Assembly: GCF_014174355.1 (NCBI RefSeq)
Contig: NZ_JABEQF010000007.1
Span: 1 to 64,000 of the forward strand
From: Gluconacetobacter azotocaptans
Lineage (GTDB): Bacteria; Pseudomonadota; Alphaproteobacteria; Acetobacterales; Acetobacteraceae
Direction of reading: 5' to 3'
DNA length: 64,000 bases
A model generated the notes under the pieces. It was not told where the DNA came from. It saw nothing but the letters and a program-made list of their open reading frames with translations, and ran no database searches. The position numbers were made by a program, and so were the translations under genes. The number at the start of each line of letters is the position of its first letter. The stretch's first letter is position 1. Of this stretch, positions 44,670 through 53,775 are shown one piece after another.

Positions 44670-45272
44670 TCATCCGGTAATTCCTGGTGTCGAGGCATCA
44701 GGCGGAGGGGGCCAGGGCGACCCGATTGCAGTGGTCGTCGCGGCCGTCGTGACGGTATTGGCAGCCGGTTGAGCTTGACCCGTCAACCTCGCTAATGCCT
44801 CACGCCTTTGGAGGTCTTCGATTTGACGTTGCTGTTGCAGTGCATTTGGATAGTAGACGCGACTAAAATCATCCATCCGCAACTGATCCGCTATGCCGAG
44901 ATCGATGGCCATCTCGCGGAGCAATTTACGGATGCGCTCATCCATCACATGAGGCGGAACATTGGGGGCACCCAAAGCTTGGAAAAGCTCCGCCCAGGCT
45001 TCACGCACTGCCGTAGAATGCGCAAACGCCACGTCAATCGAATTTAGAGCTCGCACCGAATCGTCAGCGTAGATTGTCGCGCGCGCCTGCATGATGGTCG
45101 TGAAGATATTGAGCTTAAAGCGGCGGACATCCTGGGCAATATCGCCCACCCGTCGCAGCGTCTCCGCCATTTTCGCGGCGGAAAGTGGGGCTCGCCAAGT
45201 GGCAATGGCTGCCGCGACGGCAGCGATGGCGCTAAGCCCCGCCGCAATGACGGCCGGATCGTTCCAGCTCAT
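44670..45272 (-). CDS. Membrane-anchored protein of unknown function
   Basis: 200 residues. N-terminal helix (AVIAAGLSAIAAVAAAIATW) probably anchors it; the remaining part is helical, with RRFKLNIFTTIMQARATIY and ALNSIDVAFAHSTAVREAW, a pattern I associate tentatively with the DUF6680 family. The C-terminus is Thr/Pro/Ala-rich and low in complexity. Its ATG follows the TAA of the preceding split gene by one base, so the two are translationally linked. Located behind hsdM in the island; an accessory or defence-associated role is only a guess. Confidence 0.65.
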   Translation of the reverse strand: MSWNDPAVIAAGLSAIAAVAAAIATWRAPLSAAKMAETLRRVGDIAQDVRRFKLNIFTTIMQARATIYADDSVRALNSIDVAFAHSTAVREAWAELFQALGAPNVPPHVMDERIRKLLREMAIDLGIADQLRMDDFSRVYYPNALQQQRQIEDLQRREALARLTGQAQPAANTVTTAATTTAIGSPWPPPPDASTPGITG

Positions 45273-45674: not shown

Positions 45675-47165
45675 TCATGCCACTTTCCCGAGCCCGGCTA
45701 AGACCTGCCGGAAGCTGGCCAACCCTGCTTCAAGGTTCTCGATGATCTCTTCAGCCAGCTCGTCCGGCTCGGGGAGGTTGTCGAGGTCGGTGAGGCTCTT
45801 GTCCTTGAGCCAGAAGACATCGAGGCTCGTCTTGTCGCGTGCGGTCAGTTCGTCATAGGTGAACTTACGCCAGCGGCCTTCGGGGTTCTTCACCGCATCC
45901 CATGTCGCCTTGCGCTTGTGGCGGTTCTGCGGGTTGTAGCATTTGATGAATTCCGCCAGATGCTCGAAGCGCAGCGGTTTCTTTTTCAGCGTGTGATGGA
46001 TGTTGGTGCGATAGTCGTAATACCAGACCTCCTTCGTCCAGGGGGCTTTGGCTGCCTCGCGGTTGTCGAAAAAGATCACGTTGGCCTTCACGCCGTTGGC
46101 GTAGAAGATTCCTGTCGGCAGGCGCAGGATGGTGTGCAGTTCCGTGGTCTTGAGCAGGTTCTGACGCACGGTTTCGCCCGCCCCGCCCTCGAACAGCACG
46201 TTGTCGGGCACGACAACGGCGGCGCGGCCCGTGGTTTTCAGCATCGTGCGGATGTGCTGAACGAAATTAAGCTGCTTGTTCGAAGTCGTGGCCCAGAAAT
46301 CCTGTCGGTTATAGGTGAGGTCGTCCGTCTCCTCCTCGCCAGCCTCGTTGGTGAAGCTCATGGAGCTTTTCTTGCCGAAGGGCGGATTGGCGAGCACATA
46401 GTCGAAGCTCTGCGCGCTGGGCGCGACCAGGGCATCGTTGGGCGAAATCAACACATCGCCGTCGATCTCGCCGATGTTGTGCAAAAACATGTTCATCAGG
46501 CACAGGCGGCGCGTGTTGGCGACGATCTCGTTACCGTAAAAGGTCTTGTGCTTGAGGAAAGTTTTTTGATCCCGATCCAGCCTGTAATTCGCGGGGTTGG
46601 TCAGGAAATCGTATGCGGCGAGGAAAAATCCGCCCGTGCCGCAGGCCGGATCGGCGATGGACTTACCCGGTTCCGGCCGAACGCATTCGACCATCGCCTT
46701 GATGAGCGCGCGCGGCGTGAAATATTGCCCCGCACCGGATTTGGTGTCCTCGGCATTCTTTTCGAGTAGGCCCTCGTAAATGTCGCCTTTGACATCGGCT
46801 CCCATGCTCACCCACTGCACCTCGTCGATCATGTCGATGAGGCGGTAGAGCTTCGCCGGGTCCTGAATCTTGTTCTGGGCCTTGGTGAAAATCTGCCCGA
46901 GCACATCCTTGCGCGTACCCAATTCGCGCAAAAGCGAAAGATAATGGGTTTCCAGCTCCGCCCCGCGCTTGGCCTTCAGGTTCGGCCAGGTGTATTGGGG
47001 CGGGATGCCCACATCGCGCTTGTAAGGCGGCTTGGCGTATTCATCCGCCATCTTCAGGAAGATCAGATAGGTAAGCTGCTCCAGATAGTCGCCATAGCCC
47101 ACGCCATCGTCGCGTAGCGTGTTGCAGAAGCTCCAGACCTTGGAGACGATGGGGGCGGTGCTCAT
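45675..47165 (-). CDS. hsdM: Type I restriction-modification DNA methyltransferase subunit
   Basis: 496 residues. Methyltransferase motif I is DPACGTGGFFLAAYDFL and motif IV NPPFGKKSSM, the N6-adenine signature; N-terminal HsdM_N domain (FCNTLRDDGVGYGDYLEQLTYLIFLKM) and TGAGQYFTPRALIKAMV-type region (here SGAGQYFTPRALI) are present. With HsdS it methylates adenine in the recognition site. Its ATG overlaps the TGA of hsdS (ATGA). Full-length, no disruption seen. Confidence 0.96.
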   Translation of the reverse strand: MSTAPIVSKVWSFCNTLRDDGVGYGDYLEQLTYLIFLKMADEYAKPPYKRDVGIPPQYTWPNLKAKRGAELETHYLSLLRELGTRKDVLGQIFTKAQNKIQDPAKLYRLIDMIDEVQWVSMGADVKGDIYEGLLEKNAEDTKSGAGQYFTPRALIKAMVECVRPEPGKSIADPACGTGGFFLAAYDFLTNPANYRLDRDQKTFLKHKTFYGNEIVANTRRLCLMNMFLHNIGEIDGDVLISPNDALVAPSAQSFDYVLANPPFGKKSSMSFTNEAGEEETDDLTYNRQDFWATTSNKQLNFVQHIRTMLKTTGRAAVVVPDNVLFEGGAGETVRQNLLKTTELHTILRLPTGIFYANGVKANVIFFDNREAAKAPWTKEVWYYDYRTNIHHTLKKKPLRFEHLAEFIKCYNPQNRHKRKATWDAVKNPEGRWRKFTYDELTARDKTSLDVFWLKDKSLTDLDNLPEPDELAEEIIENLEAGLASFRQVLAGLGKVA

Positions 47166-48649
47166 GCGGCCTCCTTCTTGCCGTTCTTGTTGGCAGGCTG
47201 CTTCTTCGACTTCAACCTAATAGCCTGTTCGCGTATCCGGCTCAGAAGCTCAGAGGCTGGCTCATCTCGACTATCTTGAGCGACCAACCGCCCCGAAAAC
47301 GCCCTCTTGAATATCGCCAAGCGTAGCATTTCGTCTCGTTGAAGCCCGGCCTGTACCTCATCTTCCAGCCGCTCGATAATCGAAATTTTTGCCGCTAACT
47401 CATTGACGATTTTCTGTTGCTCTTTAACGGGAGCAAGCGGAAGCGTTATGTTTGAGACGCGCTCTTTATTAAGGGCTTTCTGATTATTCCCTGAGCCTAA
47501 CGTGCGAGTGACTTGGTATTGGTATTGTAGATACCAAAATAAATATTCAGGGACGCAGTCGGTCTCAGAGATGCGGATGGCAGCGGTATTTTGGTTGTGG
47601 CACGCTGAGATGTCTAGAATAGCGGCCTGCCCACGTGTCTTACCTTCACCAATCATGGCAAGCATAACGGTACCAGGGGGGTGGACCACGGTCGATGTGT
47701 GGGCGAGGCCGAGATCGGTAATTTGCTCTTTGGTCTTTTGAATTCGCTCAAAGCGAACTTCACCACTGCTCACCCAGCTAACACTGCCGCCCCAAAACTC
47801 ACTTCGGCTGCGACTTGGCGTCGCCCCAACGTATACGTCGAAAAGCTCGCCGAGCCGAATCCAAGCCCATACATCCGGCAACGTTGTAAGCTTTTCACGT
47901 TCTTCAGTAGACAAGGCATCCGTGTCCTTCGGATTGCGCGCGGCCTTACGGGTGCTCAGGCGCTTCCCTTGTCTAGGGGCACGCTCAGCCTGTATGCGAG
48001 CCACCAGCTCTTGGGCTGTCTCGAAAGCAGAGTTCTGATGAGTCCGCCATTCTTTCGTGAGTTCTCCCTCATAAGCAGATCGTAACACTACATGCCGATA
48101 CAATTTTAGCTGCTTTTGTGCTAGCAGGAGAGCGTCGCGCGCGCTGTCCTGCTGGGTTAGAAGAGTCTCAATTCTTTCTACGATCCGACGCTGTTCATTT
48201 ATCGGAGCAATCGGGAAAGCATAATTCCACAACAAATCAGGGTCGACATGTGGTGTTCCGCTGCCCTTTGCCCTTGAATTTATCTCAAGGTATTTGGATT
48301 GAAGAAAATAATAAGCGTAATCATTGATCATTCCGTCAAATCGGATTCGCACTAACGTGCTGCCAAGCGCACCCTTTACTCCTCGTCCAACCAACCCGGA
48401 CCGGGAACCGTCCCACACCATGAGGAAGTCGCCCTCGTCGCAGAACCTGCATTCGTCACCGTCGGTCCAACTCTTCACCTTACCTTCTTCAAAGGCCGCA
48501 ATGTCGATATAGGGAAAGCGAAAGCGCTCGTTTGGTTGTTCACTTTCGCGCTTTGGCTTCTTCCCCTTTTCGCTTTGCACAAACTCGCCAAGGCGCACCG
48601 TGGCCCAGGACGTCGGGAGGAGTTTGTGCGCTCCTTGCTCGGAATTCAT
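47162..48649 (-). CDS. hsdS: Type I restriction-modification specificity subunit
   Basis: 495 residues with two target-recognition domains, each followed by a conserved helix. First: LPTSWATVRLGEFVQ ... APINEQRRIVERIETLLTQQD; second: LPDVWAWIRLGELFDVYVGATPSR ... PVKEQQKIVNELAAKISIIERLEDEV. It decides the bipartite DNA sequence. Lower G+C than neighbours is normal for hsdS. It overlaps hsdR (ATGA at 48646-48649) and hsdM. The sequence recognised cannot be told from here. Confidence 0.95.
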   Translation of the reverse strand: MNSEQGAHKLLPTSWATVRLGEFVQSEKGKKPKRESEQPNERFRFPYIDIAAFEEGKVKSWTDGDECRFCDEGDFLMVWDGSRSGLVGRGVKGALGSTLVRIRFDGMINDYAYYFLQSKYLEINSRAKGSGTPHVDPDLLWNYAFPIAPINEQRRIVERIETLLTQQDSARDALLLAQKQLKLYRHVVLRSAYEGELTKEWRTHQNSAFETAQELVARIQAERAPRQGKRLSTRKAARNPKDTDALSTEEREKLTTLPDVWAWIRLGELFDVYVGATPSRSRSEFWGGSVSWVSSGEVRFERIQKTKEQITDLGLAHTSTVVHPPGTVMLAMIGEGKTRGQAAILDISACHNQNTAAIRISETDCVPEYLFWYLQYQYQVTRTLGSGNNQKALNKERVSNITLPLAPVKEQQKIVNELAAKISIIERLEDEVQAGLQRDEMLRLAIFKRAFSGRLVAQDSRDEPASELLSRIREQAIRLKSKKQPANKNGKKEAA

Positions 48650-51405
48650 ACCGCTAACGCTTCGTTCAATTCGTCGATGACGCTATTCATGCCCGCACCG
48701 AAAAGCTGATACATTTTTCCAAGGCCGCCCTTGGCGTCGAAGGGCGACATGTCGAGGTCGTCGTGCTCGACATGGAACGATGTGGCGATGTGGTCGCGGA
48801 CCATGCGCAGCCAGTCCATCTGCTCCTCGGTGAATTTCTCGCCCGCACCGCTGTGGCGCTTCAAAATCCAGTTCTGGAAGTTGCGTCGTACCTTGTCGGC
48901 ATAGGGCGCGAGCTTGGCGTCGATCCCACAGACACGGCGGATCAGCGCCACCAGCGCGGTCAGTTCGTTCACCGGATCGCTGCCTTTGTATTCGTCGAGC
49001 AGCGCATAGGCCCGCCAGACCCGGAGCGGAGCAAGTTTGGGCCGGTCGGTTTTGAGCGCATCGAGGACAGCCTTAACCATCGCGTAGGTGACGTGCGAGC
49101 GGCGTGCCGGCTGGCTGTAGAAGATGGTCAGCGCCTCAATCGCGTCGCGATGCTCCGCAAGATAATCGGCAAATTCCTTGGCCATCGCCTCGGCGTTTTC
49201 CTTGGCGTCGCCGTCCCAGCCCTGGCCGATCACGGTATCGAGATTGTCGTGGTCGATGGTCTGTTCCTTCTCGCGGCGGATGCCGTCGATCAGGTTGATG
49301 AGCGGCCCGGTGAACACGTTTGCCGCCTGTCCAACGAGCTTGTCCCGGGCCTGTTCGCGCTGCGCGTCGGTCGGCTCACCACCCGCCGCTTTGACCGCCT
49401 CTTCCTCAATGCGGTCGGGGTCGATGGCGTCGAACAGGCGGCGCACGATTTCATGGAGGGGGACGCCGCCCGCCGTTTCCGCGATACGGGCCTGTTCCTT
49501 GTCGTCGAGCTGCTTGTCGAGCCGCGCCAGACGACCCGCCAGTGAGCTTACGGTGTCCTCGTCGCGAACGCCCATCATCACGCCGGTGGCGAGGTCTTTC
49601 AGGGGCACATGGGGCTTGGTGATGATCGGCTCGCTGGCCGTCTTGCAGGATTTGGTGACGCCGATGGCATCGACGATGACGTAGTGCGTCTTGGCGGTCT
49701 TGGCCGACGGCGTAACCTTCTTGAGGCTGTCGGCGTCAAGGGTGCGGGTGCCGCGTCCCTTCATCTGCTCGAAGTAGTTGCGACTCTTCACGTCGCGCAT
49801 GAAGAGGAGGCATTCGAGTGGCTTCACGTCCGTTCCCGTGGCGATCATGTCCACGGTCACGGCGATGCGCGGGTTGTAGTTATTGCGGAACTGCGCGAGG
49901 ACGGATTTCGGGTCTTCCGTGGCCTGGTAGGTGATCTTCTTGCAGAAGTCGTTGCCCTGCCCGAACTCCTGGCGGACGATGTTGATGATGTCGTCGGCGT
50001 GGCTGTCGGTCTTGGCGAAGATCAGGGTTTTGGGAACCTCTTCGCGGCCGGGGAAGATCACGGGCAGGCTGTCGCAGAAAGCGCGAACGACCGTGCGGAT
50101 TTGGTCGGGGTTCACCACGTCGCGGTCAAGCCGGGTGGCGCTGTATTGCTCGTCTTCGTCCTGACGCTCCCAGCGCTTCTGGCGCGTCAGGCGTTCGCGC
50201 TTTTCGACCTGCTGCTGCGCCTTGATCTGCGCGCCCTGGCGCGTGATCTGCGTATCGATGACATAGACCTCGTTGCCGACATTGACGCCATCGGCCACGG
50301 CGCGTTCGTGGCCGTATTCGCTGACAACGTTCTTGTGGAAGAAACCGTAGGTGCGGTTGTCCGGTGTGGCCGTGAGGCCGATCAGCGTGGCGTCGAAATA
50401 CTCCAGCACCTGCCGCCATAAATTGTAAATGGAGCGGTGGCACTCATCGATGACGATGAAGTCGAAGAACTCCGGCGGAATCTTCGGGTTATAGACGACC
50501 GGCAACGGTGCTTTGCCGCGCACGAGGCGTTCGGCAGGGTTGCCTTCCTCGACGCTTTCATCCAGCGGCTCGTCCTTGAGGATGGAATACATCCGCTGGA
50601 TGGTGCTGATGCACACTTGGCTGCTGCCCGCGATGAACGGCGAGCGCAGGCGCTGCACGTTGTATAGCTCGGTGAACTTCCTGTTGTCGTCGTTCGGAAG
50701 GTAGGACATGAACTCCTGCTCGGCCTGTTCGCCGAGGTTTTTCGTGTCGACCAAAAACAGAATGCGCTTGGCGTCCGCGAACTTGAGCAGGCGATAAACG
50801 GACGTGATGGCGGTGAAGGTCTTGCCCGATCCGGTCGCCATTTGCACAAGCGCACGTGGGCGGTCTTCCCGGAACGATTTCTCCAGATTCCGAATCGCCG
50901 TGATCTGGCAATCGCGCAAGCCTGCGGGATCAAGCGGCGGAATGTCGTGCAGCCGTGCCCGCAGGGATTTGGGCTTGGACAGCCATTCGGCCATTGTCTC
51001 GGGCCGGTGGAAGGTGAACACTTCGCGCGAGCGGGGCTTGGGATCGCGCCCGTCCGTGAACCGCGTGATGACGCCCGTACTTTCGTACACGTAAGGCAGC
51101 GGTTCCTTGTTGTTGACCCACTTGAGCTTGGCGGAGGCGTAACCGGACGATTGATCCTCGACTGTCGTGATCTTGTGGCCCCAATCCTTGGGCTTGGCCT
51201 CAATCACGCCGACGGCACGGCGATCCACAAAGAGCACGTAATCGGCGGGGCCGGTGTCGGTCTGGTATTCCCGGACGGCGATGCCCTGACCGACGGACCA
51301 GTCGAGGTCCTTCATGTTCTGAACATGCCAGCCCGCATCGGCCAGGTGCTTGTCGATCTGGTCGCGCGCGAGCTGTTCCGGGTTCTGGTTGGCGGCTGGC
51401 GTCAT
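48646..51405 (-). CDS. hsdR: Type I restriction endonuclease subunit R
   Basis: 919 residues. N-terminal nuclease domain with GPADYVLFVDRRAVGVIEAKPKDWG (D...ExK), then an SF2 translocase: Walker A ALVQMATGSGKTFTAI, DEAH-box variant FIVIDECHRSIYN, LIGLTATPDN, VDMIATGTDVKPLECLLF and QMKGRGTRTLD. The C-terminal helical region resembles the EcoEI-type R subunit. It cleaves unmodified DNA after translocation. Start ATG 51405 overlaps the stop of a 38-codon reading frame. Full-length. Confidence 0.95.
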   Translation of the reverse strand: MTPAANQNPEQLARDQIDKHLADAGWHVQNMKDLDWSVGQGIAVREYQTDTGPADYVLFVDRRAVGVIEAKPKDWGHKITTVEDQSSGYASAKLKWVNNKEPLPYVYESTGVITRFTDGRDPKPRSREVFTFHRPETMAEWLSKPKSLRARLHDIPPLDPAGLRDCQITAIRNLEKSFREDRPRALVQMATGSGKTFTAITSVYRLLKFADAKRILFLVDTKNLGEQAEQEFMSYLPNDDNRKFTELYNVQRLRSPFIAGSSQVCISTIQRMYSILKDEPLDESVEEGNPAERLVRGKAPLPVVYNPKIPPEFFDFIVIDECHRSIYNLWRQVLEYFDATLIGLTATPDNRTYGFFHKNVVSEYGHERAVADGVNVGNEVYVIDTQITRQGAQIKAQQQVEKRERLTRQKRWERQDEDEQYSATRLDRDVVNPDQIRTVVRAFCDSLPVIFPGREEVPKTLIFAKTDSHADDIINIVRQEFGQGNDFCKKITYQATEDPKSVLAQFRNNYNPRIAVTVDMIATGTDVKPLECLLFMRDVKSRNYFEQMKGRGTRTLDADSLKKVTPSAKTAKTHYVIVDAIGVTKSCKTASEPIITKPHVPLKDLATGVMMGVRDEDTVSSLAGRLARLDKQLDDKEQARIAETAGGVPLHEIVRRLFDAIDPDRIEEEAVKAAGGEPTDAQREQARDKLVGQAANVFTGPLINLIDGIRREKEQTIDHDNLDTVIGQGWDGDAKENAEAMAKEFADYLAEHRDAIEALTIFYSQPARRSHVTYAMVKAVLDALKTDRPKLAPLRVWRAYALLDEYKGSDPVNELTALVALIRRVCGIDAKLAPYADKVRRNFQNWILKRHSGAGEKFTEEQMDWLRMVRDHIATSFHVEHDDLDMSPFDAKGGLGKMYQLFGAGMNSVIDELNEALAV

Positions 51406-51518
51406 CGTCCCCGCAACCCGTCAAGAAGCAGGCGCACGGTGTAGCCGTCCGTAAGCGGCCGGCCGGGGTCCTTCAAAAGCTGGCCTATCTTAACGCGCGT
51501 GAACGCTTCACTGGCCAC
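51402..51518 (-). CDS. 38-codon reading frame coupled between Phd-like antitoxin and hsdR
   Basis: From GTG 51518 (overlapping the antitoxin end by 11 bases) the frame encodes VASEAFTRVKIGQLLKDPG, then RPLTDGYTVRLLLDGLRGR, and its TGA overlaps hsdR's ATG. It fills the place where a toxin gene would be expected. IGQLLKDPGRPLTDG recalls the beginning of some restriction R subunits (LLKxAGWxLTDG), so it could be a decayed start of another R gene. A functional peptide is also possible. Coding status uncertain. Confidence 0.4.
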   Translation of the reverse strand: MASEAFTRVKIGQLLKDPGRPLTDGYTVRLLLDGLRGR

Positions 51519-51714
51519 CTTTCGACGCCCCCTTGGCCCTCGTTTCCCCCTTGTCCGTGCGCCCAGAGTGCATGGAAAGCCGTTCATATTCTTCTGCCGA
51601 GACGACCACCACAACGCCGCGCCCGTGCTTCTCGATCAGCACCGGCTCCGCGCGCGCGGTGTCGATCAGCAGCCCAAAGCCGTTCTTAGCATCGCGTGCC
51701 GACATGGTTTTCAT
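51508..51714 (-). CDS. Phd/YefM-family antitoxin
   Basis: 68 residues from ATG 51714: KTMSARDAKNGFGLLIDTAR, then PVLIEKHGRGVVVVVSAEEYERL. This is the prevent-host-death fold that binds DNA by its N-terminus and neutralises a toxin by its C-terminal tail; here the tail after YERL is basic and Gly-rich. No Doc, RelE or YoeB toxin follows; instead the operon runs into hsdR. It may act as the autoregulator of the restriction operon. Upstream alternative start at 51744. Confidence 0.8.
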   Translation of the reverse strand: MKTMSARDAKNGFGLLIDTARAEPVLIEKHGRGVVVVVSAEEYERLSMHSGRTDKGETRAKGASKGGQ

Positions 51715-51990
51715 GGTCCGTCCCGCCGCAAACCGATAACGCATTTAGGCTAAAGTAGCTCTTATTGGCAATGCTGACTTTGGCGACGTGGACATAGACC
51801 GCAAAAGGATGTCGCTGCGCTACGCGGGGTTTCGTGCCGCCCTTTCGCTACCGCAGATCTGCATGGTGATGACTCGGCGAGTCGCAGCATCATATCGGAA
51901 AACCGGTCTTGAAAGCGGAGTTTTAAGGATGATCCGATGTAGGCGGTCCCTTCATTGATCTTGGAGGATGGTTTTTAGATTGTACGAAAC

Positions 51991-52007
51991 GCTAAGCGTG
52001 ACTTAGC
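51991..52007. promoter_or_regulatory. Inverted repeat upstream of abiEi (candidate operator)
   Basis: GCTAAG-CGTGA-CTTAGC, a 6-bp inverted repeat 48 bases before the AbiEi start in an AT-rich promoter-like region. AbiEi antitoxins are known to repress their own operon through inverted repeats, so this is a candidate site. The region 51745-52054 is the shared divergent promoter of the phd/hsd and abiE operons. Confidence 0.4.
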
Positions 52008-52054
52008 TAATATCGAAAAATATGAACTCGACATCGGTTTAAAAATATGCCAGA

Positions 52055-52852
52055 ATGTCAAGCATGAGTATACGTTCTGGCGGCAAACTAAACCGACTCC
52101 AGCAGGAACTCCCCGAGGGTCTCCTGGCCGACGCCGCCTGGATGGAGGCTCACGGCTACTCGTCGGCGCTGCGCAGCCAGTATGTTCGCGCGGGCTGGCT
52201 CGATAGCCCCACCCGGCGGGTCTATCGCCGCTCGCGCACACCACTCACCTGGCAGCAGGTGGTCGTCTCGCTCCAGACGGTGCTGGACCTTCCGCTCACC
52301 GTTGGCGGGCGTACCGCGCTCGAACAGCAGGGTTACGCCCATTACCTTTCGACAGCCATGCGCGAGATTCATCTTTACGGGCCGAAGCGTCCGCCGACCT
52401 GGCTGGCAAGCCTGCCGCTCAACGTGACCTTTCATTGGCACAACAACCTGCGGCTGTTTCCCGGCGACACCGGCGCACCGCCCGAGCCAAGCCCCGTCAT
52501 GGTCGGCGCCGGCGGCCTGATCCTGCCACTCCGCTATTCCAGCAAGGAGCGCGCCGTTCTCGAATTACTCGACGAACTGCCCGAGCATGAGAGCTTCCAT
52601 CAAGCCGATGCCTTGATGGAAGGGATGAGTGATCTGAGCCCGCGCCGCCTGCAAACGCTGCTGGAGGCTTGCGCCAGCGTGAAGGTGAAGCGGCTCTTTC
52701 TGTTCTTCGCCGACCGCCACCGCCATGCGTGGCGATCCCGGCTCGACATGTCCCGCGTCGATCTGGGTTCGGGCAAGCGCGTCCTCGCCAAAGGCGGCAA
52801 GCTCGATACGCACTACAACATCACCGTGCCGTCCGACCTTGGAGGCCCATGA
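52055..52852 (+). CDS. AbiEi-family type IV antitoxin
   Basis: 265 residues (or 262 from ATG 52064). Winged helix-turn-helix N-terminus (EAHGYSSALRSQYVRAGWLDS), then PTRRVYRRSRTPLTWQQVV, VGGRTALEQQGYAHYL, and a C-terminal domain with LSPRRLQTLLEACASVKVKRLFLFFAD. The pattern is the AbiEi_3/N antitoxin. It counters the AbiEii nucleotidyltransferase encoded immediately downstream (ATGA overlap), giving abortive infection against phage and element stability. Confidence 0.9.
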   Translation: MSSMSIRSGGKLNRLQQELPEGLLADAAWMEAHGYSSALRSQYVRAGWLDSPTRRVYRRSRTPLTWQQVVVSLQTVLDLPLTVGGRTALEQQGYAHYLSTAMREIHLYGPKRPPTWLASLPLNVTFHWHNNLRLFPGDTGAPPEPSPVMVGAGGLILPLRYSSKERAVLELLDELPEHESFHQADALMEGMSDLSPRRLQTLLEACASVKVKRLFLFFADRHRHAWRSRLDMSRVDLGSGKRVLAKGGKLDTHYNITVPSDLGGP

Positions 52853-53775
52853 AGTTCATGGCCTTCCTGGAGACATATCGGCAGCAGGTCGCCCTGCTCA
52901 TTCGCGTCCTTCCTTTCGTCGCGGAGGAGCGGGCTTTCGCGCTCAAGGGCGGCACCGCGATCAACCTGTTCGTGCGCGACATGCCACGCCTCTCCGTGGA
53001 CATCGACCTGACCTATCTGCCGGTTGAAGATCGAGCCACATCGCTCGTGGCAATCGACGCCGCCATGCTGCGGATCAAGGAACGGATCGAACGAGTCCTC
53101 CCCGCCGCGAGAGTCAATGCTTCGCGTTCCGCCGATGAGAAGATCGTCACCAAGCTGATCGTTCGGGCGAGCGGCGTGCAGATCAAGATCGAGGTGACGC
53201 CGGTGCTCCGCGGTGCGGTCTATGATCCCGTCGTAATGAGCGTGGTTCCCGTTGTCGAAGACGCCTTCGGCTTCGCCGAAATGCAGATCGTGTCATTCGC
53301 CGACCTCTATGCGGGCAAGATCGTGGCGGCCTTCGACCGACAGCATCCGCGCGACCTCTTCGACGTGCGCGGCCTGTTGGCGAACGAGGGCATCAATGAC
53401 GAGCTGCGCCGCGCCTTTCTGGTGTACGTCATCAGCCACAACCGTCCGATGGCCGAAGTTCTCGCCCCGACCCGCAAGCCGCTGAGCGAGGAGTTCGCGC
53501 GGGGTTTCACCGGCATGACGCAGGAGCCTGTCGCGCTTTCGGACCTTGAGACCGCGCGGGAAGCGATCATCGCCGCGATGGTCGCCGCCATGCCCGAGGA
53601 TCATCGGCGCTTCCTCGTCGGTTTCAAGCGAAGCGAGCCGGATTGGGAGCTTCTCGGGATACCCGAAGCGCGGCATCTACCCGCCGTCATGTGGAAGCAG
53701 CGTAACCTCGCCAAACTGACCGCTGCAAAGCGACGCGAGTTGATCAATGCGTTGGAGCGTGTGCTCTTTCCCTGA
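52849..53775 (+). CDS. AbiEii/AbiGii-family nucleotidyltransferase toxin
   Basis: 308 residues. The nucleotidyltransferase signature is ALKGGTAINLFVRDMPRLSVDIDLTYL (GGTAIN ... DIDL), followed by IKIEVTPVLRG with the third acidic residue and FADLYAGKIVAAFDRQHPRDLFDV. These are DUF1814 (PF08843) motifs I-IV. Such toxins modify tRNA or other targets by nucleotide transfer. Start ATG 52849 overlaps the antitoxin TGA. All key residues are present, so the system should be functional. Confidence 0.92.
   Translation: MKFMAFLETYRQQVALLIRVLPFVAEERAFALKGGTAINLFVRDMPRLSVDIDLTYLPVEDRATSLVAIDAAMLRIKERIERVLPAARVNASRSADEKIVTKLIVRASGVQIKIEVTPVLRGAVYDPVVMSVVPVVEDAFGFAEMQIVSFADLYAGKIVAAFDRQHPRDLFDVRGLLANEGINDELRRAFLVYVISHNRPMAEVLAPTRKPLSEEFARGFTGMTQEPVALSDLETAREAIIAAMVAAMPEDHRRFLVGFKRSEPDWELLGIPEARHLPAVMWKQRNLAKLTAAKRRELINALERVLFP

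Follow-up and report, generated by a model that had tools for sequence, protein, structure and literature searches.

A solo Phd-like protein as a probable antitoxin-derived autorepressor leading a type I restriction operon and, in relatives, other defence operons

Several small regulators are known from bacterial defence loci. RptR, known from Gammaproteobacteria, is a small regulator encoded by the first gene of DarTG and type I restriction islands; it has TAGCTA palindromes in its own promoter and is a single four-helix domain without relatives in the PDB (PMC12255303). The WYL-domain family BrxR/CapW is found next to BREX, restriction and further kinds of defence system (PMC9122601, PMC9122589, PMC9122588), and the C proteins are small autoregulators of type II restriction operons (PMC12255303). 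The Phd-Doc relatives TvrAT lie in the pneumococcal SpnIV type I locus, where they limit expression of a recombinase gene and where the authors report no evidence of toxin-antitoxin activity (PMC6265443). Phd/YefM antitoxins have palindromic sites in their own promoters (PMC13034048), and in 2009 Makarova and colleagues raised the possibility that antitoxin homologues standing alone regulate a variety of operons (PMC2701414). Here we describe a Phd-like gene that leads a type I restriction-modification operon in a 64,000-nucleotide stretch of Gluconacetobacter azotocaptans (contig NZ_JABEQF010000007.1, positions 1 to 64,000; hereafter the window) and relatives of it that stand before other defence genes. 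We suggest that its product is probably an antitoxin-derived local autorepressor, with a leader that is exchanged between defence operons.

The five genes of the operon lie on the minus strand and overlap serially: the Phd-like gene (51508..51714, 68 aa), a 38-codon frame with a GTG start (51402..51518), hsdR (48646..51405), hsdS (47162..48649) and hsdM (45675..47165). The first two overlap by 11 bases, and the 38-codon frame/hsdR, hsdR/hsdS and hsdS/hsdM junctions are each 4-base ATGA overlaps; all of these, as listed in the initial annotation, are present on direct reading. The hsd genes encode a predicted type I restriction-modification system in a single operon, with HsdR matching ResIII, EcoEI_R_C and HSDR_N (PADLOC REase_I), HsdS matching Methylase_S (PADLOC Specificity_I) and HsdM matching N6_Mtase and HsdM_N (PADLOC MTase_I). 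The Phd-like gene is followed by the 38-codon stub and then hsdR, and not by the adjacent toxin gene of a type II toxin-antitoxin pair. The initial annotation had stated that no toxin is present, which holds for what follows the Phd-like gene but not for its neighbourhood, where an AbiEi/AbiEii type IV toxin-antitoxin pair with its own antitoxin lies divergent from the restriction operon (52055-53775, plus strand).

The Phd-like protein matches PF02604 (PhdYeFM_antitox) with 48.8 bits and E 5.9e-13, the cut-off being 29.8 bits; no other protein of the 4.13-Mb genome does so at E 0.001. PF02604 is the sole domain found, at E 0.1, in a longer 78-aa open reading frame that opens at 51744 and shares its stop side at 51508; relatives and the position of the promoter favour the ATG at 51714 as the start. 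An AlphaFold model built with 18 sequences (mean predicted local distance difference test (pLDDT) 82.3, predicted template modelling score 0.61) has three strands and three helices in the order beta-alpha-alpha-beta-beta-alpha, and thus contains the beta-alpha-alpha-beta-beta arrangement of the N-terminal DNA-binding fold of Phd/YefM. Block pLDDT is 96-97 for residues 1-40 and 87 for residues 41-50, and averages below 50 beyond. The first ten Foldseek matches comprise YefM, Phd, the Phd-operator complex, a prevent-host-death protein and the PfiAT complex, with probability 1.00 and E 0.004-0.02, none reaching 0.001, modest values attributable to the small size of the domain. The best structural matches include YefM 2a6q, Phd 3hs2 and Phd-operator 4zm0/4zm2, and VIA-align fills its first 23 rows with antitoxins, from Z 7.5 down to 5.0 (Z 6-7.5 for the best), before the first non-antitoxin at Z 3.4. 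A profile of 24 short relatives (A1) gave no match at E 0.01 against PDB sequences.

Against eight relatives, the ratio of nonsynonymous to synonymous substitution rates (dN/dS) is 0.05-0.17 over the first 46 codons, which encode the conserved DNA-binding core, and at least 0.42 over the tail in the seven computable comparisons; the core is under purifying selection and the tail is not. Such selection speaks against the improbable case that the gene is a relic, the functionless remnant of a toxin-antitoxin pair after toxin loss, which the lack of a following toxin, the unconserved tail and the 38-codon remnant behind the gene would suit, as would an internal stop in three strong matches (L104/L133, L118/L146 and L126/L154). 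The recurrence of the same group of proteins before defence genes in many genera, described below, also argues against a relic.

A search of 397 genomes from the window's own family gave Phd-like matches at E 1e-4 in 108 of them. Flanks were taken for the best 60 matches ranking under the window's own, and 40 of the next genes were scanned with Pfam, some also with PADLOC; labels in this family were assigned by hand from Pfam and PADLOC where available. Nine unscanned strong loci (L108, L130, L131, L133, L138, L146, L148, L162 and L163) were labelled by likeness to scanned genes, and the remaining labels come from BLAST to a reference set (scanned genes plus annotated plasmid genes), Pfam, and scans of later loci. 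The strong matches are short proteins, mostly of 62-75 aa (about 55-80 aa for the group overall), which keep the Phd DNA-binding domain and have an unconserved C-terminus. They precede hsdR, hsdM, type III mod, DarT, DrmD-like and PLD/SNF2 helicases, a DruE-like helicase with DpdE, BREX BrxF/DUF6079, Mrr and cytosine methyltransferases. The weak matches are mostly 80-88 aa long and stand before PIN or PemK/MazF-like genes. Some of the latter fall under the Pfam cut-off: 14 toxin labels rest on likeness to locus L170, whose own PemK match has 21.2 bits against a cut-off of 23.1. A PemK/MazF-like partner of PHD has been described for Alphaproteobacteria (PMC2701414).

The A1 profile gave the same split between strong and weak matches in samples of the class (385 genomes) and the phylum (398), which overlap in part. 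Of the 146 loci tabulated jointly, 63 score at least 85 bits, a line chosen after inspection of the table; a defence gene comes next in 55 of these and a toxin gene in none, the others being five with other or unassigned genes (two at contig ends) and three at contig ends without a label. Both genes between 80 and 85 bits are toxin-linked, so that a line at 80 bits gives 55 defence and 2 toxin. Below 80 bits, toxin genes follow 61 of the 81, with 5 defence, 3 other and 12 unlabelled; among the five defence cases, L108, L154, L156 and L159 are partial or mis-placed, and the fifth is L168. Outside the window's family, the 80-bit line separates 26 defence and 2 toxin loci from 0 and 44 (Fisher p 1.4e-17, overstated by kinship). 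Near-duplicate loci are L129/L130, L152/L153, L308/L309 and L311/L312, and L018 and L131, which are very probably one and the same K. swingsii contig (33,461 bp in each case), were counted once. On a poorly resolved tree of 119 proteins and 52 columns, 3 changes account for the defence label, compared with 40 for shuffled labels. These solo Phd-like proteins make up a distinct group inside Phd/YefM.

Further supporting this association, all 11 new strong matches in a second family (208 genomes) lie before defence genes, while the 11 weak matches of that and a third family (18 genomes) comprise seven with a toxin match, none with defence and four unlabelled. Two strong loci, L269 and L271, belong to a different class within the phylum. 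Nine of the 42 matching plasmid records were inspected, most others repeating the same organisms: leaders precede annotated hsdM-S-R on Sinorhizobium meliloti pSymB, DISARM drmD on a Methylocystis MJC1 plasmid, methyltransferase, S and R genes (type I restriction) on a Ketogulonicigenium vulgare plasmid and BREX-3 brxF on a Roseomonas mucosa plasmid, and of the five weaker matches four stand before RelE/ParE or PIN toxins and the fifth before a gene of neither kind. The 51 IMG/VR loci encode 41 distinct proteins, and 34 of the 37 testable ones precede a defence-gene match and none a toxin, although seven of the 34 matches are remote (only about 27% identity to the gene of L168); phage records gave no match. 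With the longest open reading frame taken as the gene, 44 of the 55 first defence genes begin no more than 60 bp from the phd stop, and 16 overlap phd by exactly 4 bases. On the Methylomagnum ishizawai plasmid, a canonical Phd and PIN toxin pair sits between hsdS and hsdR of a type I locus (L191, 9010-12118).

The variety of these downstream genes also bears on whether the protein still acts as an antitoxin. The C-terminal tail is the toxin-binding region of Phd-type antitoxins; in the proteins of A1 and A3 it is variable, and in the window model (residues 51-68) it is of low confidence. An antitoxin working in trans, on a toxin encoded elsewhere or on the restriction enzyme itself, would fit the membership in Phd/YefM and the presence of toxin families on other contigs (ParE, one match; PIN, four; Fic, one and partial). 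We nevertheless think this unlikely, as the tail argues against it and so does the likeness of leaders placed before mutually unrelated genes (SNF2 helicases, methyltransferases, DarT, BrxF, DruE-like). The suggestion in the initial annotation that restriction itself serves as the toxin of the pair is unsupported for the same reasons, namely that similar leaders precede unrelated systems and that the tail is unconserved.

An autorepressor would need a site in its own promoter, and a candidate is present. An operator-like inverted repeat, AGCTA-CTT-TAGCC (AGCTACTTTAGCC; 51748..51760, minus strand), matches RGCYA-N3-TRGCY at 10/10 positions and starts 46 bp before the ATG at 51714. It falls in the spacer between a -35-like hexamer, TTGCCA (51766..51771, minus strand), kept in L128 and L131, and a -10-like hexamer, CTAAAT (51743..51748, minus strand), 17 nt further on and matching TATAAT at 3/6 positions, both of them picked out by eye; a consensus promoter scan reported neither hexamer and no phd promoter. 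AGCTANNNTRGCC occurs once in the whole genome, at this operator, while reversed-pattern controls occur 27 and 36 times. Scored as the best match, out of 10, within 100 bp upstream, the motif averages 9.29 in 45 group promoters, against 7.19 (standard deviation 0.11) in mononucleotide shuffles and 8.22 in canonical Phd promoters (n=63), and the repeat is perfect in 25 of the 45 and 9 of the 63 (Fisher 7e-6, kinship ignored). Because the motif had been derived from those 45 promoters, it was tested on further loci: 15 later ones gave 11 perfect repeats, three scoring 9 and one scoring 8 (Fisher 2e-5 against canonical, kinship ignored), every repeat starting at -25 to -46, and 41 IMG/VR promoters gave 26 perfect, 3 at 9, 10 at 8 and 2 at 7 (Fisher 4e-7, kinship ignored). 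None of the 11 weak loci of the second and third families has a perfect repeat. The start of the best match falls between -50 and -24 in 40/45, 15/15 and 39/41 (IMG/VR) promoters, compared with 33/63 canonical ones.

A consensus-free count agrees: in the zone from -50 to -24, a perfect 5-bp repeat with a 3-nt spacer is found in 11/45, 24/41 and 2/4 promoters, and further upstream in 1/45, 1/41 and 0/4. The arms are of two types only, GGCCA (30) and GGTCA (7), so that the two arms vary in step. Loci L332-L337, L346, L370 and L372 have AKHQFG near the N-terminus of the protein and GGTCA/TGACC arms replacing GGCCA/TGGCC; in this subgroup it is possible that protein and site changed together. A palindromic candidate site in the gene's own promoter that recurs in relatives is what Phd-type autoregulation would require, as far as sequence can tell, and the proposal in the initial annotation that the antitoxin is an autoregulator is borne out to this extent by the purifying selection, the Phd/YefM fold of the model and an operator-like repeat at a near-fixed place in the promoter.

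The position of the repeat bears on the sense of the regulation. The Phd-like gene heads an R-first operon and has a repeat in its promoter, and it might instead encode an activator with positive feedback, resembling type II C proteins and delaying restriction until the protein builds up, a timing role that would suit restriction. We hold this to be slightly more improbable still than a relic or an antitoxin in trans, for a repeat between the proposed -35 and -10 would be at a repressor position, the fold is that of Phd and not the helix-turn-helix of C proteins, and the leader also precedes systems that are not known to have such a delay.

The leader itself appears to be mobile. Those of the window and L128 are near-identical (synonymous divergence (dS) 0.148 in phd, 88% DNA identity in the stub), yet the former precedes hsdR and the latter a DrmD-like helicase, and the stub is the only translated match between their downstream stretches; global-alignment percentages for the L128 sequence beyond its stub are inflated by gaps and were left aside. 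By comparison, dS is 0.657 between the hsdR genes of the window and L131, where dN/dS is 0.06. Other like leaders precede unrelated genes (BREX-3 versus DISARM, 78-79%; PLD-helicase versus hsdM, 74%). These comparisons support placement of the promoter-operator-phd leader before different defence operons by recombination. In L019, a close relative by HsdR (89%), a Fic-like frame, seen by eye, lies directly upstream where phd would be.

A number of observations weigh against the autorepressor proposal. A search for Phd genes upstream of hsdR in other genomes, the check proposed in the initial annotation, found the leader before only 1 of 93 HsdR relatives (in K. swingsii; 92 had at least 300 bp upstream), a result that by itself would speak against conservation, while it is kept before many other operons, for which reason a test of conservation at hsdR alone is too narrow. 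Some members precede other genes, namely a glycosyltransferase (L158), HNH proteins (L136, L139) and a fusion (L150), and the relatedness of the loci means that the p-values overstate their independence. The motif was read by eye from the 45 promoters, seven loci without a clear start being skipped; 19 of the 45 score only 8 or 9 and one scores 7, and 44/63 canonical promoters score at least 8/10, so the motif is not exclusive, and the sole discriminating features are a perfect match and the position. A perfect 5-bp repeat with a 3-nt spacer is found in the same zone of 12/62 canonical promoters, near the 11/45 of the group, although canonical promoters show no preference for this spacer (14 at spacer 3, 3-13 at others), and spacer 1 also scores in IMG/VR promoters (14, nested repeats). 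If the binding mode is inherited, a related site would be expected in the nearest canonical Phd genes; on the relic explanation the similar repeats could be merely inherited, but the perfect repeat is commoner in the group than in canonical promoters. The -10 of the phd promoter is weak, and the relaxed motif RGCYANNNTRGCY has about 102 genome sites (reversed control 220), so that other targets are possible.

The 38-codon frame has no family match in PADLOC, Pfam or NCBIfam, and dN/dS is 1.2 and 1.3 in two comparisons of 35 and 38 codons, a small sample, from which it follows that its amino-acid sequence is not kept; we reject a conserved small protein on these two grounds. The frame resembles the N-terminal 29 residues of an HsdR-like protein of 720 aa in L134 (59%, E 3.7e-8 in a small database), whose gene directly follows phd, and stubs in L128 (74%) and L139 (55%). 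By this resemblance, it is the truncated 5' remnant of another restriction-type gene. In L128, L131 and the window alike the frame is uninterrupted and overlaps the following start with its stop, which suggests that it may be kept open as a translational coupler.

In the mechanism we propose, a dimer of the Phd-like protein would bind RGCYA-N3-TRGCY in its own promoter (window 51748-51760) and repress both its own gene and the defence operon, which would be co-transcribed and translationally coupled with it; the promoter-operator-phd leader would travel by recombination to different defence operons, and release might come with infection or on entering a new host. This proposal is backed by the gene order, by the group and its association with defence genes, and by the recurring repeat, the selection on the core and the fold of the model; the protein probably serves bacterial immunity as a common on/off switch. 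Far more tentative is a modular immune switch across Alphaproteobacteria and some other Proteobacteria that uses antitoxin instability as an infection sensor, in which host shut-off would deplete a labile repressor and free the defence genes; the group, the site and the swapping are supported here, and the sensor step is speculation.

This group offers a concrete, testable case for the solo-antitoxin idea: a single 68-aa protein, a predicted operator of 13 bp and, behind the relatives, some ten kinds of defence gene. The operator and leader profile could serve as bait for unknown defence systems: the operons behind the leaders of L136, L139, L339, L378 and L158, where HNH, unassigned or glycosyltransferase genes come next, are candidates. 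At L150, where the Phd-like N-terminus is in frame with a long protein that by eye resembles a secretion adaptor and is followed by a WD40-type gene, the leader has seemingly been captured by another gene.

Around the operon, the AbiEi/AbiEii pair has about 86% DNA identity to Acidisoma and Tistrella plasmids, and AbiE genes are also found close to the leader locus of S. meliloti pSymB (L185). Between the two divergent operons of the window, at 51990-52010, there is by eye TTAGCTAA, which includes the TAGCTA of RptR, and a nearby CTTAGC, about 45-65 bp before abiEi; these may be an AbiEi site. The Arm-DNA-binding part of an integrase (PF13356; 54334-55071, minus strand) is in a frame that stops after 245 aa and looks truncated, and a DUF6680 protein (PF20385, E 5.1e-20; 44670-45272, minus strand) is encoded about 400 bp past hsdM.

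Among the matches listed from open-licence PMC papers, there was no report of a solo Phd group leading defence operons. The known systems nearest to it share some of its features. With Phd/YefM antitoxins (PF02604) it has the DNA-binding domain and fold in common, as well as a palindromic site, here predicted, in its own promoter, but window-type proteins lack an adjacent toxin gene, have a shorter and unconserved C-terminus, and head defence operons. C proteins, likewise small regulators of a restriction operon (an autoregulator by prediction in our case), are a helix-turn-helix (XRE-like) family of type II systems with feedback that includes activation, whereas the Phd-like protein has PF02604 only and a Phd fold. 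BrxR/CapW WYL proteins are larger and carry a sensing domain, whereas the group described here consists of proteins of 55-80 aa with no recognised sensor domain, and in the Phd-like open reading frame no WYL domain was found beside PF02604. The two have in common that one regulator family serves several defence systems and that inverted repeats lie in the promoters (PMC9122601). TvrAT is likewise a Phd relative inside a type I restriction locus, but it has a toxin homologue and does not lead the operon, as the window gene does. RptR comes close, being a small first-gene protein with a short palindromic site in its own promoter, a regulator as the window protein is predicted to be; by description it is set apart by its single all-helical domain, where the Phd-like model has three strands and three helices, and the group leads more system types. 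The Phd-like protein would do the same job as RptR, BrxR and CapW with another fold.

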